The notes under the pieces: generated by a model | The model's database searches: none | Told to the model about the DNA's origin: nothing | What the model saw: the letters and a program-made list of their open reading frames with translations, nothing else | Shown: positions 2,235 through 7,796 of the stretch, in pieces | Layout of the letters: every line of letters starts with the position of its first letter | Position numbering within the stretch: position 1 is the first letter of the stretch | Program-made: the position numbers and the translations under genes | IMG/VR virus record: IMGVR_UViG_3300032083_000145 | Coordinates: 1-20,515 of that record | Length of the DNA: 20,515 nt | Reading direction: 5' to 3' (one strand) | DNA from: a virus

Positions 2235-3017
2235 ATGAATGTAAATAATATTATAAATGATTTATCACTTGTAAATGGTGAGTCAAAGAGATTAGATTGT
2301 CCATCATGTAATAGAACTAACACATTTACAGTTACCAATAATATGGGAACTATATTGTATAACTGTTATAGTAATAATTGTAGTTTGTCTGGTAAGAAGA
2401 ATGTGAAGCTAAGTAGTGAGGATATACGTAAGTCTATTAGTCCTACAACTACAGAGAATAGTATAACTTTTACAAAACCGGATTGTCTAGTAAAAGATAA
2501 CAAAGCAATATCTATATTCTGTAAGCAATGGGATATAGACCCTGATGAACTAGGTCTGTTGTACGATGTAAAGGAATCTCGTGTTGTATTTCCAGTGCTA
2601 GAGTCAGGTGTAATGGTAGATGCTAGTGGCAGAAGTATCACACACCGAATACCAAAGTGGAAACGATATGGTAAAAGTAGCTTGCCTTATAGCTATGGTA
2701 ATGGTAGTGTAGCTGTAGTTGTTGAGGACTGTATAAGTGCTGCAATTGTAGGTAGTGATGTATATGTCGGGGTTGCTGTGTTGGGTACATCCCTATCAGA
2801 AGAACACAAGAGGTTCTTATCACAGTTCTCAACAGCCATTGTAGCTCTAGACCCCGATGCACTACCCAAGACAATACAATTTACTAAAGAACTAAGGGGA
2901 TACGTTGACACTGTAGTTGCCTTTAAACTAACTAATGATTTAAAATATAGACACCCTAACGACATTGAAAAACTAACAACACTAGGAGTAAAATATGGAA
3001 TTAACATTAATACGTAG
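2235..3017 (+). CDS. DNA primase (zinc ribbon + Toprim), T7 gp4 N-terminal half type
   Basis: A 260-residue primase, expected to make short RNA primers at the replication fork. The N-terminus has a four-cysteine zinc ribbon (C22, C25, C44, C49) for template recognition. A Toprim-like catalytic core follows, with VVVEDCISA (E164, D165) as the acidic first motif and ALDPDA (D206, D208) as the DxD motif. It matches the N-terminal half of T7 gp4, but here primase and helicase are separate genes. The 3' end overlaps the helicase start by 23 bases in another frame, which suggests coupled translation. The Shine-Dalgarno before 2235 is weak (AAAGAAAGTG). Assignment is from motifs and position. Confidence 0.85.
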   Translation: MNVNNIINDLSLVNGESKRLDCPSCNRTNTFTVTNNMGTILYNCYSNNCSLSGKKNVKLSSEDIRKSISPTTTENSITFTKPDCLVKDNKAISIFCKQWDIDPDELGLLYDVKESRVVFPVLESGVMVDASGRSITHRIPKWKRYGKSSLPYSYGNGSVAVVVEDCISAAIVGSDVYVGVAVLGTSLSEEHKRFLSQFSTAIVALDPDALPKTIQFTKELRGYVDTVVAFKLTNDLKYRHPNDIEKLTTLGVKYGININT

Positions 3018-4218
3018 TCTAATGGATAGAGACTTCTATGATGATCACAAGGGTGCAAAGTGTCCTGACAGATTATTTAGTAAGGATGTACGTAAGATTA
3101 AAAATGCTGTAGATTTAGCTATGAAAAGATACGAGCGTACTGTTACACCTGCTGAGATTGAAGCTCTGTTTATGTCTAACAATGCTCAACTTACTACAGC
3201 ACAGAAACAGGCATACACATCTCTGTTTAACCAGATAAAGAAAGAACCCTTAATGGGTAATGACATAGCACAGGAAGTTCTTTCTAAGTTATTTCAACAG
3301 GTAGTAGGTGAAGACGTAGCTAATCTAGGATTTGAAATGGTCAATGGTACTATGTCTAACCTAGAGCCTATACGTAATATACTAGAACAGTATGGTGATG
3401 ACTTCACACCTGACTTAAACATTGAATGGGATAACATGGATGTTGAGACATTGCTTGCTAAGAATGATCTTGAAGCCAGATGGACGTTTAATATACCTAC
3501 ACTGACACGTAAGATAGAAGGTGTGAATGAAGGACACCTGATTGAGGTAGGTGCTAGACCTAACACAGGTAAGACATCCTTCCATGCTAGTCTAGTTGCA
3601 GGACCAAATGGTTTTGCACAGCAGGGTGCTAAGTGTATTATATTATGTAATGAAGAAGGTCCACATCGTGTAGGTGCTAGATACTTAACAGCAGCTACAG
3701 GCATGACCATGCATGAAGTAAAGGCTAACCCCAGTAAGGCAAGGGATATATACTCACCCATAAGTGATAATATTAAAGTTAAAGATTCTACAGGTAGAGA
3801 CATGTCTTGGGTAGAGAGTATGTGTAAATCATACAAACCCGACATAGTTATACTAGACATGGGAGATAAGTTTTCTAAGGCAGGTGGTTATGCTAGACCA
3901 GATGAAGCACTCAAGGCTAATGCCATACATGCACGACAGATAGCCAAGCAACATAGTTGTGCTATCTTTTATATGTCACAGCTATCTGCTGATGCAGAGA
4001 ACAAGGTGGTATTAAATCAGGCTATGATGGAAGGGTCACGTACAGGTAAAGCTGCTGAAGCTGACCTAATGATTCTGATAGCTAAGAACCCACCTGTTGA
4101 AGGACAGGAAGAAGAAGATACACAAAGACATTTGAATGTAGTTAAAAATAAACTTTCGGGGTGGCATGGTATTGTACACTGTGAACTAAACTACAGAACT
4201 GCAAGGTATGAAGTATGA
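2995..4218 (+). CDS. Replicative DNA helicase, DnaB / T7 gp4 family
   Basis: A 407-residue RecA-fold helicase, expected to form a hexameric ring that unwinds the fork using NTP. An N-terminal linker-like domain (about 1-160) precedes the ATPase core. The Walker A motif is GARPNTGKTS (186-195, K193), the probable catalytic glutamate is in LCNEE (220-221), Walker B is IVILD (D288), and the DnaB-type motif 3 is YMSQLSADAE (about 326-335). The C-terminal KNKLSGWHG segment corresponds to the region carrying the trans-acting Arg/Lys in this family. AGGAG at 2984-2988 sits 6 bases before the ATG at 2995, and an in-frame TAA at 2989-2991 precedes it, so initiation is independent of the primase. The stop overlaps the endonuclease VII-like gene start (ATGA). 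Confidence 0.92.
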   Translation: MELTLIRSLMDRDFYDDHKGAKCPDRLFSKDVRKIKNAVDLAMKRYERTVTPAEIEALFMSNNAQLTTAQKQAYTSLFNQIKKEPLMGNDIAQEVLSKLFQQVVGEDVANLGFEMVNGTMSNLEPIRNILEQYGDDFTPDLNIEWDNMDVETLLAKNDLEARWTFNIPTLTRKIEGVNEGHLIEVGARPNTGKTSFHASLVAGPNGFAQQGAKCIILCNEEGPHRVGARYLTAATGMTMHEVKANPSKARDIYSPISDNIKVKDSTGRDMSWVESMCKSYKPDIVILDMGDKFSKAGGYARPDEALKANAIHARQIAKQHSCAIFYMSQLSADAENKVVLNQAMMEGSRTGKAAEADLMILIAKNPPVEGQEEEDTQRHLNVVKNKLSGWHGIVHCELNYRTARYEV

Positions 4219-4685
4219 CACAACAGGAACTATTTATAATAGAAGAACTACCAGAAGAGTATATAGAAGAAGGAATTATATGTATAAAGTGTGATGTACG
4301 TCAACCTCTCTATAACTTTCAGAGTCCTAGACCTACTATGGGTAATTCTACTGGAGAAATAAAAAGAACTTGTAAATCTTGTCATAGTGGACATAGTAAG
4401 ATTATTAGAAAACTTAAAGATGAAAACGCTTACCCAGATAAAAATTATTGTTGCCCTATATGTAGTAGGGATGTATTAGAACTTAGTCGTCACGGAAAAA
4501 GTAAACTGAGTACATGGGTTTTAGATCACTGCCATGATACCAATACCTTTCGTGGTTGGGTGTGTTCACATTGCAACACTGGATTAGGTGGTTTTAAAGA
4601 TGACTTGACAATAATTAAAAAAGCTGTTAAATATTTAAAGAGGCATAAGGAGAGTTTAGATGATGCACAAACCACCAAGGATTAA
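4215..4685 (+). CDS. Endonuclease VII-like (HNH/beta-beta-alpha-metal) nuclease
   Basis: A 156-residue nuclease of the recombination endonuclease VII family, whose T4 member cuts Holliday junctions and branched DNA. The core runs from CCPICS (C80, C83) through VLDHCHDTNTFRG (D104, H105, H107) to CSHCNTGLGGF (C117, C120). The two CxxC pairs would bind structural zinc, and DHCH supplies the catalytic His and metal ligands. An extra N-terminal CxxC pair set (C23, C26 and C53, C56) looks like a second zinc ribbon. The start overlaps the helicase stop. An independent junction resolvase family, endonuclease I, is encoded downstream at 8764, so this one may have another role, for example DNA-packaging-linked debranching or homing. 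The fold assignment is firm; the biological role is inference. Confidence 0.88.
   Translation: MTQQELFIIEELPEEYIEEGIICIKCDVRQPLYNFQSPRPTMGNSTGEIKRTCKSCHSGHSKIIRKLKDENAYPDKNYCCPICSRDVLELSRHGKSKLSTWVLDHCHDTNTFRGWVCSHCNTGLGGFKDDLTIIKKAVKYLKRHKESLDDAQTTKD
4647..4654 (+). promoter_or_regulatory. Ribosome binding site for the 51-aa gene
   Basis: AAGGAGAG lies about 6-8 bases upstream of the tandem ATG codons at 4660 and 4663, inside the 3' end of the endonuclease VII-like gene. It supports the small downstream reading frame as a real gene. Confidence 0.6.
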
Positions 4686-4815
4686 GTACTACGTAGAGTA
4701 TGAGATCAATGCAGAACATGACACAGAGAGTATAACTTTGTTTGCTCATGGGCCACAAATGGTACGAGATATACTTGATAGTTATATTGTAGCTAAGATA
4801 GAGGAAATTGAATGA
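4660..4815 (+). CDS. Small hypothetical protein (51 aa) between nuclease and polymerase
   Basis: A short reading frame fills the gap between the endonuclease VII-like gene and DNA polymerase. It starts MMHKPPRIKYYVEYEINA and ends AKIEEIE. The start lies inside the 3' end of the upstream gene, behind AAGGAG, and its TGA stop overlaps the polymerase ATG (ATGA at 4812-4815). Such tight overlap at both ends is typical of real genes in this operon. The product is acidic, probably a small mixed alpha/beta fold, with no recognisable motif. Tandem ATG codons (4660, 4663) leave the exact start open by one codon. It may couple translation to the polymerase, which has no strong Shine-Dalgarno of its own. 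Confidence 0.7.
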   Translation: MMHKPPRIKYYVEYEINAEHDTESITLFAHGPQMVRDILDSYIVAKIEEIE

Positions 4816-6860
4816 ATGTTGTAACAGTTTTAGATGTAGAGAATACTACTATTAAACGTAACAATAAACTTATGCTTGATCCTTTTGAATCTGAAAATTC
4901 GTTGACAATGGTAGGTATGTTAAATAACTCTGGAGAAAAGATAGTTACGTTTGATCACAGTGAACAACAACCTACTACTGAGGGTGGAAGTATTGTCCAG
5001 AACATTCTGGATGATACCCACCTCTTGGTTATGCAGAATGCTATACATGACTTAACATGGTTGTGGGAATCTGGTTTTACTTACACTGGAGATATCTTTG
5101 ATACCATGCTTGGTGCTTATATAATACAACGAGGACAAAAAGAACCCTTGAGTCTTGAGTACTTAGCAGAACGATACAACTGTGATACACAGAAGATGGG
5201 TACACTAAAGGATTACTTCAACAGAGGATATACGACCAGAGAGATACCACATGAGGAGTTGTCACAATACTTATCTGCTGACTTACATGCTACTATGGAG
5301 TTGTATGATAAGATAAATGATCAGCTTAACACACACGATACAGGCTTAGTGGATACCGTAAAACTAACCAATCAAATATGCATACATCTTGCACGTATCT
5401 ATCAGAAGGGTTTTAATGTTAATCAAGAAGCACTTGAAGAAGTACGTAAAGAGTTTGAAGCTGAGAAGCAAGAGTTGTTAGCTAAGTTACAGTTGCAGGT
5501 GCATGAGCTAATGGGTGACAGACCTATTAATCTTAATAGTCCAGAGCAGTTGTCTTGGATTATCTACAGTAGAAAACCTAATGACAAACCTATGTGGGCT
5601 AACTCATTTAGTTCAAGGCTAACACCATCTGAGTTTAGATCTATTACTAAGCAGAACTCTGTTGTATTATACAAACAAAAGGCACGACAGTGTACTACAT
5701 GTAGGGGTACAGGTAAGGTACGTAGAACTAAGAAGAATGGTACACCATTTGTTAAAACAAGTAAGTGCTTAGAATGTAAGTCAGAAGGGTATCTCTTTAC
5801 TAATACAGATACTATAGCAGGTCTAAAGTTTGCTGCACCTAACCCCGATTGGGTAAGCGCACACGGATTTAGTACCAGTAAAGACAACCTTATAAAGCTA
5901 GAGACCAATGCTAGAGAAAGAGATTTTCAGACTGCTGTTGTATTTTTGCAACGGGTTAGAAGATTATCAGCACTAGACACATATTTATCTAGCTTTGTTG
6001 ATGGTATATCTACACACATTAAATCAGATGGTATGCTACACGTTCAGTTACTACAGCACAGGACAGGTACAGGCAGGTTGTCTGGAGCTAACCCTAACAT
6101 GCAGAACATGCCACGTGGTCAGACGTTTCCTGTAAAGAAAGTGTTTGTGTCACGATGGGAAGGTGGTAAAATACTTGAGGCAGATTTTGCACAGTTAGAG
6201 TTTAGAGTTGCTGCATTCCTTAGTCAGGATAAGATAGCTATACAAGAAGTGTCAACAGGATTTGATGTACACAGTTACACAGCTAAAGTTATCAGTGATG
6301 CAGGGCAGAAGATATCACGCCAAGATGCAAAGGCACATACGTTTGCTCCCTTGTATGGTGCAAGTGGATTTGGTAGGACAGAAGCAGAAGCGTCCTATTA
6401 TCAACAGTTTACTACTAAGTATAAAGGTATATCAGAGTGGCATAAGAGATTAGCTAATGAAATACTTACTACTGGTAAAATAAAAACACCATCTGGTAGA
6501 GAGTTTACATGGCCCGATGTACAGCGTAGACGGAATGGAAGTGTGACATATTTCACACAGATAAAGAATTATCCTGTTCAATCCTTTGCAACTGCTGACA
6601 TCGTACCTATATCTCTGATATACATAGATAAGTTACTAGAAGCAAATAAGATGGAAAGTTGTATAGTAAATACAGTACACGACAGTATAGTTATTGATGT
6701 ACATCCAAATGAAGTAGATAAGGTAATACGAATAGTAAAAGCAACAAATGATAACTTAATAAAAATAGTAAATACTAAATGGAATATAGACTTTAATGTA
6801 CCTTTATTATTAGAGGCAAAGATTGGAGATAATTGGCTTGACACAAAAGATGTGGCATGA
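4812..6860 (+). CDS. polA: DNA polymerase I family (family A) with 3'-5' exonuclease and DnaJ-type zinc-finger insert
   Basis: The 682-residue replicative polymerase of the phage. The proofreading exonuclease domain carries D8/E10 (LDVEN), D80 (NAIHD) and D157 (YLSAD). The polymerase domain carries motif A EADFAQLEFR (D458), motif B RQDAKAHTFAPLYG (R503, K507, F511, Y515) and motif C NTVHDS (H623, D624). F511 aligns with E. coli Pol I F762. Between the exonuclease and polymerase domains lies a CxxCxGxG ... CxxCxxxG element (C294, C297, C319, C322) like part of the DnaJ cysteine-rich central domain. A partial DnaJ domain in the polymerase was reported for phage HMO-2011, as I recall. The length matches T7-like polymerases (about 700 aa). 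The start is coupled to the preceding 51-aa gene by ATGA. Confidence 0.97.
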   Translation: MNVVTVLDVENTTIKRNNKLMLDPFESENSLTMVGMLNNSGEKIVTFDHSEQQPTTEGGSIVQNILDDTHLLVMQNAIHDLTWLWESGFTYTGDIFDTMLGAYIIQRGQKEPLSLEYLAERYNCDTQKMGTLKDYFNRGYTTREIPHEELSQYLSADLHATMELYDKINDQLNTHDTGLVDTVKLTNQICIHLARIYQKGFNVNQEALEEVRKEFEAEKQELLAKLQLQVHELMGDRPINLNSPEQLSWIIYSRKPNDKPMWANSFSSRLTPSEFRSITKQNSVVLYKQKARQCTTCRGTGKVRRTKKNGTPFVKTSKCLECKSEGYLFTNTDTIAGLKFAAPNPDWVSAHGFSTSKDNLIKLETNARERDFQTAVVFLQRVRRLSALDTYLSSFVDGISTHIKSDGMLHVQLLQHRTGTGRLSGANPNMQNMPRGQTFPVKKVFVSRWEGGKILEADFAQLEFRVAAFLSQDKIAIQEVSTGFDVHSYTAKVISDAGQKISRQDAKAHTFAPLYGASGFGRTEAEASYYQQFTTKYKGISEWHKRLANEILTTGKIKTPSGREFTWPDVQRRRNGSVTYFTQIKNYPVQSFATADIVPISLIYIDKLLEANKMESCIVNTVHDSIVIDVHPNEVDKVIRIVKATNDNLIKIVNTKWNIDFNVPLLLEAKIGDNWLDTKDVA

Positions 6861-6899: not shown

Positions 6900-7796
6900 A
6901 TGAACGAGATAGCAAATATAAATACAAATGACTATGCAGCAATGGCTAAAGCTATGGGCATGGTAATGGATACAGGAGCTAATAAAGAAAAAGCTGATGC
7001 ACTAGCACGTGTACGTATTAACCACTCACCCATTATGGGTAGATCAGAAGTTAAAGGTAAGATGGTTAATGTAGAAGTTGTGAGTGGTGGTACGTACAAA
7101 CTGGACATACCAGATGGACCAACATACTATTCTGATACAGCTACCATACGTCCTTACATGCAAAGGTTTATGCATAAGCGTTTTGTAATGAAGACAGATA
7201 CTACACCTAACAGGTACATTAAAACTATTATGGCTGACAACTTGAATGTTGATCTGAAAGATAATGATGGTGGTTTTAATTGTGGTAAACCTGCAGGTTA
7301 TATACAAGACTTTAAATCTTTACCTGAGAAGATGCAAGACCTTCTAAAGCAGATCAAGCGTGTACGTGTACTGTTTGGTACTATAGAGTTAGACAATCCT
7401 GTGGATGAGACAGGTGCATCAGTTACGATAGGGGCTACGCCATTCATATGGGAAGTTGAGAACAGAGATGCTTTCAAAACCTTTGGTACAAATGTGTTTA
7501 ATAAACTTAATAAGATGAAACGTCTTCCGATACAGCACTATGTGAAGTTAGCTACAGAGGAACGTAAGCTACCCAATGGTAGTTGTTTTTATCTTCCATC
7601 TGTTACTCTTGACCTGTCTAACACCCTTGATATGGATGATGAAGCACAGGAGATATTTGCTAACTTCTTAGCATGGGTAGCTAACTATAATGGTTACATA
7701 ACAAATGCATGGAATGAAAGTATGCATAAACATGAAGAGGTTGATAAGAGTACTGTTGATGAGTTCATTGACATAACTGCAGAGGAATTTGCTTAA
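6900..7796 (+). CDS. Hypothetical protein, candidate single-stranded DNA-binding protein
   Basis: A 298-residue soluble protein that I do not recognise from motifs. It has an internal core with many beta-prone segments (about 50-110 and 155-245). The C-terminal tail is acidic, with several Asp/Glu and ends DITAEEFA, resembling the acidic, aromatic-ended tails of T7 gp2.5 and bacterial SSB. It sits directly after the polymerase and before the exonuclease, the order in which T7-like phages often place replication accessory proteins. No canonical OB-fold signature is visible to me. A good Shine-Dalgarno (AGGAGAAA) precedes the ATG at 6900. Its TAA overlaps the ATG of the exonuclease gene. The SSB role is inference; a different recombination or replication accessory protein is equally possible. 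Confidence 0.7.
   Translation: MNEIANINTNDYAAMAKAMGMVMDTGANKEKADALARVRINHSPIMGRSEVKGKMVNVEVVSGGTYKLDIPDGPTYYSDTATIRPYMQRFMHKRFVMKTDTTPNRYIKTIMADNLNVDLKDNDGGFNCGKPAGYIQDFKSLPEKMQDLLKQIKRVRVLFGTIELDNPVDETGASVTIGATPFIWEVENRDAFKTFGTNVFNKLNKMKRLPIQHYVKLATEERKLPNGSCFYLPSVTLDLSNTLDMDDEAQEIFANFLAWVANYNGYITNAWNESMHKHEEVDKSTVDEFIDITAEEFA

Follow-up and report, generated by a model that had tools for sequence, protein, structure and literature searches.

The HMO-2011 group of marine phages was defined in papers of 2019 and 2022 by a hallmark of its DNA polymerase, a partial DnaJ domain (PMC6918029, PMC9038755). The published descriptions place this domain between the exonuclease and polymerase domains (PMC6918029, PMC9038755), and PF00684 is annotated in the polymerase of the HMO-2011 record. 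Insertions in the thumb of other family A polymerases have been described in functional terms: the T7 and human mitochondrial polymerases contact their processivity factors through such insertions, and those of the plant organellar polymerases were modelled as meeting duplex DNA (PMC7699545). In T7, the region of the thioredoxin-binding domain takes the acidic tails of both the helicase and the single-stranded DNA-binding protein (SSB) (PMC7699545, PMC12593628).

An earlier note on the DNA studied here, made from its letters, had named the partial DnaJ domain of the HMO-2011 polymerase correctly, as the record annotation and the published papers demonstrate. Its remark that the job of this insert appears undescribed agrees with the literature that we found, where authors have used the domain to mark the group from 2019 at the latest; the literature searched reports neither a function of the finger nor biochemistry on HMO-type polymerases. 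The finger itself is already known and is not new. What is new is the quantified invariance of its cysteines, its corrected location, its reading as a single zinc site, its zinc-free counterparts in other phages and the pattern of acidic tails in neighbouring proteins. Phages of the HMO-2011 type abound in the oceans and are among the commonest groups there, and the finger was present in every polymerase of the group that was found.

The polymerase gene and its surroundings

The window, i.e. the whole stretch of 20,515 nucleotides that was analysed, covers the left-hand portion of a marine phage of the HMO-2011 type. Its genes follow in the order integrase, primase, helicase, endonuclease VII, polymerase, a 298-aa protein, exonuclease, T7-type endonuclease I and class II ribonucleotide reductase, after which come genes on the opposite strand. 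HMO-2011 shares the order integrase, primase, helicase, polymerase, endonuclease and ribonucleotide reductase, to which the window adds the endonuclease VII gene. This endonuclease VII-like gene occupies positions 4215-4685, in the gap between helicase and polymerase; HMO-2011 has none there, and its helicase and polymerase genes overlap. The features of the replication genes and of the polymerase domains are as follows.

2995..4218, + strand: DnaB-like replicative helicase, C-terminus not acidic (Pfam DnaB_C, E=1.8e-12)
4812..6860, + strand: family A DNA polymerase of HMO-2011 type, 682 aa (Pfam and identity to cultured phages)
4812..5336, + strand: 3'-5' exonuclease domain, about residues 1-175 (Pfam match 58-172, Klenow alignment, secondary structure of the model)
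5340..5567, + strand: residues 177-252, the first half of the thumb, comprising helices 177-199, 205-234 and 244-252, with helix H1 (INLNSPEQLSWIIY; Klenow counterpart FNLSSTKQLQTILF) at its end (model, Klenow alignment)
5568..5870, + strand: thumb-tip insert, residues 253-353, predicted as two short helices followed by a beta stalk that bears the zinc finger (length comparison, AlphaFold2)
5871..6848, + strand: residues 354-679, comprising the remainder of the thumb together with palm and fingers (Pfam DNA_pol_A 350-676)
6900..7796, + strand: 298-aa protein whose conserved C-terminal tail is acidic, candidate ssDNA-binding protein and candidate partner (position and tail)

The Pfam matches of the polymerase (DNA_pol_A, E=4e-57; DNA_pol_A_exo1, E=6e-12) indicate the exonuclease and polymerase of family A. 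Over 99% of its length the protein is 71% identical to the polymerase of CRP-345, 70% to that of CRP-1 and 63.5% to that of HMO-2011, its nearest cultured counterparts. By its sequence, the window polymerase is a new member of the known HMO-2011 kind.

The cysteine motif and its conservation

The finger and its parts were delimited as follows.

5658..5822, + strand: predicted zinc finger, residues 283-337, with a stalk of strands 287-293 and 327-335 and two CxxC knuckles at its end (models, Foldseek)
5691..5714, + strand: first knuckle, C294-T-T-C297-R-G-T-G301 (cysteines in 346/346 polymerases, glycines in all except 2)
5715..5765, + strand: basic hairpin joining the knuckles, residues 302-318 (conserved Lys/Arg)
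5766..5789, + strand: second knuckle, C319-L-E-C322-K-S-E-G326, a degenerate CxxCxGxG (cysteines and G326 invariant in HMO-type polymerases)

The residues and spacing that the earlier note had read, C294xxC297xGxG301 followed by C319xxC322xxxG326, are present in ORF 4812-6860, with C294 at nt 5691-5693, C297 at 5700-5702, C319 at 5766-5768, C322 at 5775-5777 and the turn glycines G299 and G301 in the first motif. The interval 5685-5785 that it gave for them holds all four cysteines, but G326 (5787-5789) lies just beyond its end. PF00684 (DnaJ_CXXCXGXG) aligns to residues 289-330 at E=2e-5 and 25.2 bits, which is under the gathering score of 32.7, and this match to a partial DnaJ domain sits between the exonuclease and the Pfam polymerase matches. 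When the protein was shuffled 100,000 times, any CxxC...CxxC pair occurred in 9 of the shuffled sequences and the full motif in 0; thus the pair of motifs is not expected by chance. The first motif is an exact CXXCXGXG, whereas in the second (CLECKSEG) a serine replaces the first glycine, giving CxxCxxxG instead of the CxxCxGxG quoted in the papers on HMO-type phages. Since many of the collected members vary at this glycine, the published criterion of two CXXCXGXG motifs should be read loosely.

Relatives were collected by scans of viral contigs and as incidental matches from a scan with other phage polymerases, and cultured phages were added; the HMO-type set leaves out one SPO1-like polymerase (L091). 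The earlier note had proposed an alignment of marine phage polymerases as a check. C294, C297, C319 and C322 were kept together in all 346 HMO-type polymerases, or 129 representatives after reduction to below 90% identity (pairwise identity down to 30%, median 41%), and free variation was not seen. The remaining three cysteines of the window polymerase vary among relatives. Within the finger (residues 283-337) the only fully invariant residues of the HMO-type set are the four cysteines, G326 and G337, and in three contigs (L277, L302, L312) a motif glycine is lost while every cysteine is kept. The motif was also found in 7/7 polymerases from genome bins that span the region. Among near relatives, 113 nonsynonymous and 212 synonymous changes were counted in the finger, compared to 798 and 2516 in the rest of the gene. 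The higher ratio in the finger implies that the invariance of its cysteines does not result from generally slow change.

The cysteines lie within a basic insert, as the earlier note had described: Lys or Arg occupies positions 305, 307 and 318 in 96%, 95% and 88% of the representatives, respectively, and the net charge of the finger ranges from 0 to +11, with a median of +5 and at least one representative at 0. In the CRP-738-like polymerases (L083, L216, L241 and others) the hairpin between the knuckles has 12-13 additional residues and is more basic, the net charge reaching +11.

Thiol chemistry is possible at zinc centres of the DnaJ type, and the cysteines might accordingly form a redox or zinc-release switch. 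The pattern found here is that of an ordinary structural Cys4 site with highly conserved turn glycines, and nothing pointing to redox control was found, which makes such a switch very improbable.

The predicted fold and its location in the thumb

AlphaFold2 without templates modelled the whole polymerase with a pLDDT of 91. When the insert was modelled alone, the mean pLDDT was 86.7, and it reached 93-97 in the finger. The insert was confidently folded in the prediction, and it resembles DnaJ-type zinc fingers. In Foldseek searches of the PDB its best matches were DnaJA2 (probability 0.99), BSD2 (0.95), anti-TRAP (0.92) and DnaJA3 (0.72), all of them half or whole DnaJ-type zinc fingers; the E-values were weak (0.12 to 0.72), as is expected at about 40 residues. 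A fold search with the whole polymerase returned general PolA matches only. A profile of 93 inserts had DnaJ (1exk, E=0.008) as its top match, with the inner two repeats aligned, followed by Ydj1, DnaJA3 and the phage antitermination protein Q. As the alignment is to the inner two repeats of DnaJ, the insert is, on modelling, a single predicted Cys4 zinc hairpin that corresponds to zinc centre II of DnaJ. With invariant cysteines, a confident fold and the matches to DnaJ, BSD2 and anti-TRAP, the proposal of a DnaJ-type zinc finger is well supported. A whole DnaJ domain was rejected, because only two of the four CXXCXGXG repeats are present and these align to the inner pair.

The 2022 paper on the HMO-2011 group points to the part that DnaJ plays when lambda replicates, and by that analogy the insert might recruit the host DnaK/DnaJ machinery. 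However, Pfam and NCBIfam gave no match to a J domain in the window polymerase, one zinc centre is present instead of two, and the half-fingers of anti-TRAP, antitermination protein Q and BSD2 show that this fold also serves in proteins unconnected with the Hsp70 cycle. Recruitment of chaperones therefore appears extremely improbable.

According to the model and the Klenow alignment, the insert is flanked by thumb helices on both sides, 177-199, 205-234 and 244-252 before it and 357-369 after it. Helix 244-252 includes the motif NLNSPEQL, which is equivalent to FNLSSTKQL of Klenow (helix H1). For these reasons the insert is placed, by model and alignment, inside the polymerase thumb, in the H1-H2 loop at the thumb tip. 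This corrects the earlier note, which like the published descriptions had put it between the exonuclease and polymerase domains; the published placement probably arose because the Pfam polymerase match begins after the insert. The corrected site, a thumb loop after H1, shows both a target for deletion and an analogy with T7 that should not be assumed.

The T7 polymerase (sequence from record NC_001604) has its thioredoxin-binding domain at approximately residues 258-334. It precedes the helix equivalent to H1 (FNPSS at 334), and the T7 H1-H2 loop carries no insert. The identity of the insert with the T7 domain was thus rejected on site, since the T7 domain lies before H1 and the insert of the window after it. 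A MAFFT alignment that superposed both inserts was recognised as an alignment error from the anchoring at FNPSS (334) and from local alignments.

The H1-H2 insert is about 100-128 aa long in HMO-type polymerases and 15-22 aa in StenR_269 and SPO1-like polymerases, with about 22 aa in StenR_269; this polymerase used as a query yielded one further relative only. The polymerases of KP34-like, Rhizobium, Pseudomonas SeaP1 and Methylophilales phages have inserts of about 50-120 residues in this loop. No similar finger was found in non-HMO phage polymerases, tblastn with the thumb region giving the HMO group and chance matches to tail proteins, and the paper on the Thermus phage G20c polymerase mentions neither zinc nor thioredoxin. 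A possible closer outgroup to the HMO type is L404, a polymerase of 620 aa that shares 29% identity with the HTVC033P enzyme; it has no zinc finger, and its basic loop is shorter. In Methylophilales phage MEP402, Alcaligenes phage QDWS535 and several contigs the family A polymerase is split between two ORFs, one for the exonuclease and thumb followed by one for the palm and fingers, and in MEP402 a 77-aa ORF lies between them. The entries of this group are L084:2989-5100, L090:1629-3544, L352-L356, L371, L397 and L399; for the contigs, the first half of the split polymerase was examined.

Possible roles of the finger

We infer that the finger is a zinc-braced basic element of the thumb tip that grips the primer-template DNA and raises affinity or processivity without thioredoxin, and we give this function a probability of roughly one half. 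The Cys4 zinc hairpin would sit at the thumb tip on its two-stranded stalk, and zinc would most likely brace the hairpin. So braced, it could turn its conserved Lys/Arg side chains toward the primer-template duplex that exits the active site, and it may hold the enzyme on DNA as a built-in processivity or grip element for which host thioredoxin is not needed. The points counted for DNA grip are the invariant cysteines, the confident AlphaFold2 model, the DnaJ-like fold, the conserved Lys/Arg, the H1-H2 site and the basic inserts of relatives, with the thumb insertions of the T7, human mitochondrial and plant organellar polymerases as precedents. Deletion of the thumb tip of Klenow lowers DNA affinity and processivity. 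The suggestion of the earlier note that the insert replaces a processivity factor is plausible, because the insert is basic and lies at the thumb tip, although the thioredoxin-binding site of T7 is not matched. If the finger does replace thioredoxin as a grip, it would represent a thioredoxin-independent route to a processive family A replicase, and such an element could inform polymerase engineering.

Against DNA grip stand the weak Foldseek E-values and the representative whose finger has a net charge of 0; moreover, acidic tails of proteins could bind to a basic surface just as well as DNA. Tails with a net charge of -4 or lower were found in 243/257 products of polymerase-adjacent genes compared to 27/593 background ORFs (upstream ORFs), and the thioredoxin-binding domain of T7 binds the tail of gp2.5 (PMC7699545). 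The main task of the finger could thus be docking, its basic face binding the acidic C-terminal tail of the neighbouring protein. This protein carries a conserved GG(F)xCGK-like motif, and its position and tail make it a candidate SSB. It had no match in Pfam, PHROGs, NCBIfam or the PDB, a profile comparison gave no match to the sister family either, and its assignment as a recognised SSB was therefore rejected. Neighbours of the zinc-free sister polymerases also have acidic or DDDIPF-like tails, which is in line with docking as such but makes the pairing non-specific, since acidic tails then also adjoin polymerases without the finger. Docking as the main role is therefore considered rather unlikely; a DNA-gripping finger might, as a second use, also dock an acidic tail, for instance the one on the 298-aa protein.

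The finger might also couple the polymerase to the helicase or primase. The acidic helicase tails of T7 bind basic patches of the polymerase, one of them near the thioredoxin-binding domain (PMC12593628), and primase, helicase and polymerase are published core genes of the HMO-2011 group. However, the C-terminal tails of HMO-type helicases (e.g. ...YRTARYEV) have a net charge of about 0, and consequently the T7 contact cannot be copied as such. The claim that the insert contacts the helicase is weakened, as the acidic C-terminal tail is found on the protein encoded directly downstream of the polymerase and not on the helicase as in T7, and we regard such coupling as improbable.

A formulation that spans both DNA grip and docking, namely that the finger is a built-in processivity clamp or an SSB-docking module at a site unlike that of T7, with zinc-free equivalents in related phages, is put forward tentatively, the odds being somewhat against it.

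Comparison with known systems

The polymerases of HMO-2011, CRP-1/2/3, CRP-345 and HTVC033P are of the same kind as that of the window, with the partial DnaJ insert and all four cysteines. The cysteine-rich domain of DnaJ/Hsp40 proteins (1exk, 1nlt, 2ctt, 7zhs) shares the Cys4 hairpin of zinc centre II, whereas the window insert has two motifs instead of four, one predicted zinc site and neither J nor substrate-binding domains. Stand-alone half DnaJ fingers (anti-TRAP, BSD2 and phage antitermination protein Q) are alike in fold or profile; their carriers differ, none being a polymerase. The inserts of KP34-like, Rhizobium, SeaP1 and Methylophilales phages occupy the same loop, are mostly basic and contain a K.G...G.PK-like hairpin, but lack CxxC pairs. 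The thioredoxin-binding domain of T7 gp5 is likewise inserted at the tip of the thumb in a phage polymerase of family A, and it is not known to contain zinc. The window insert and the T7 domain are neighbours at the thumb tip and represent separate insertions.
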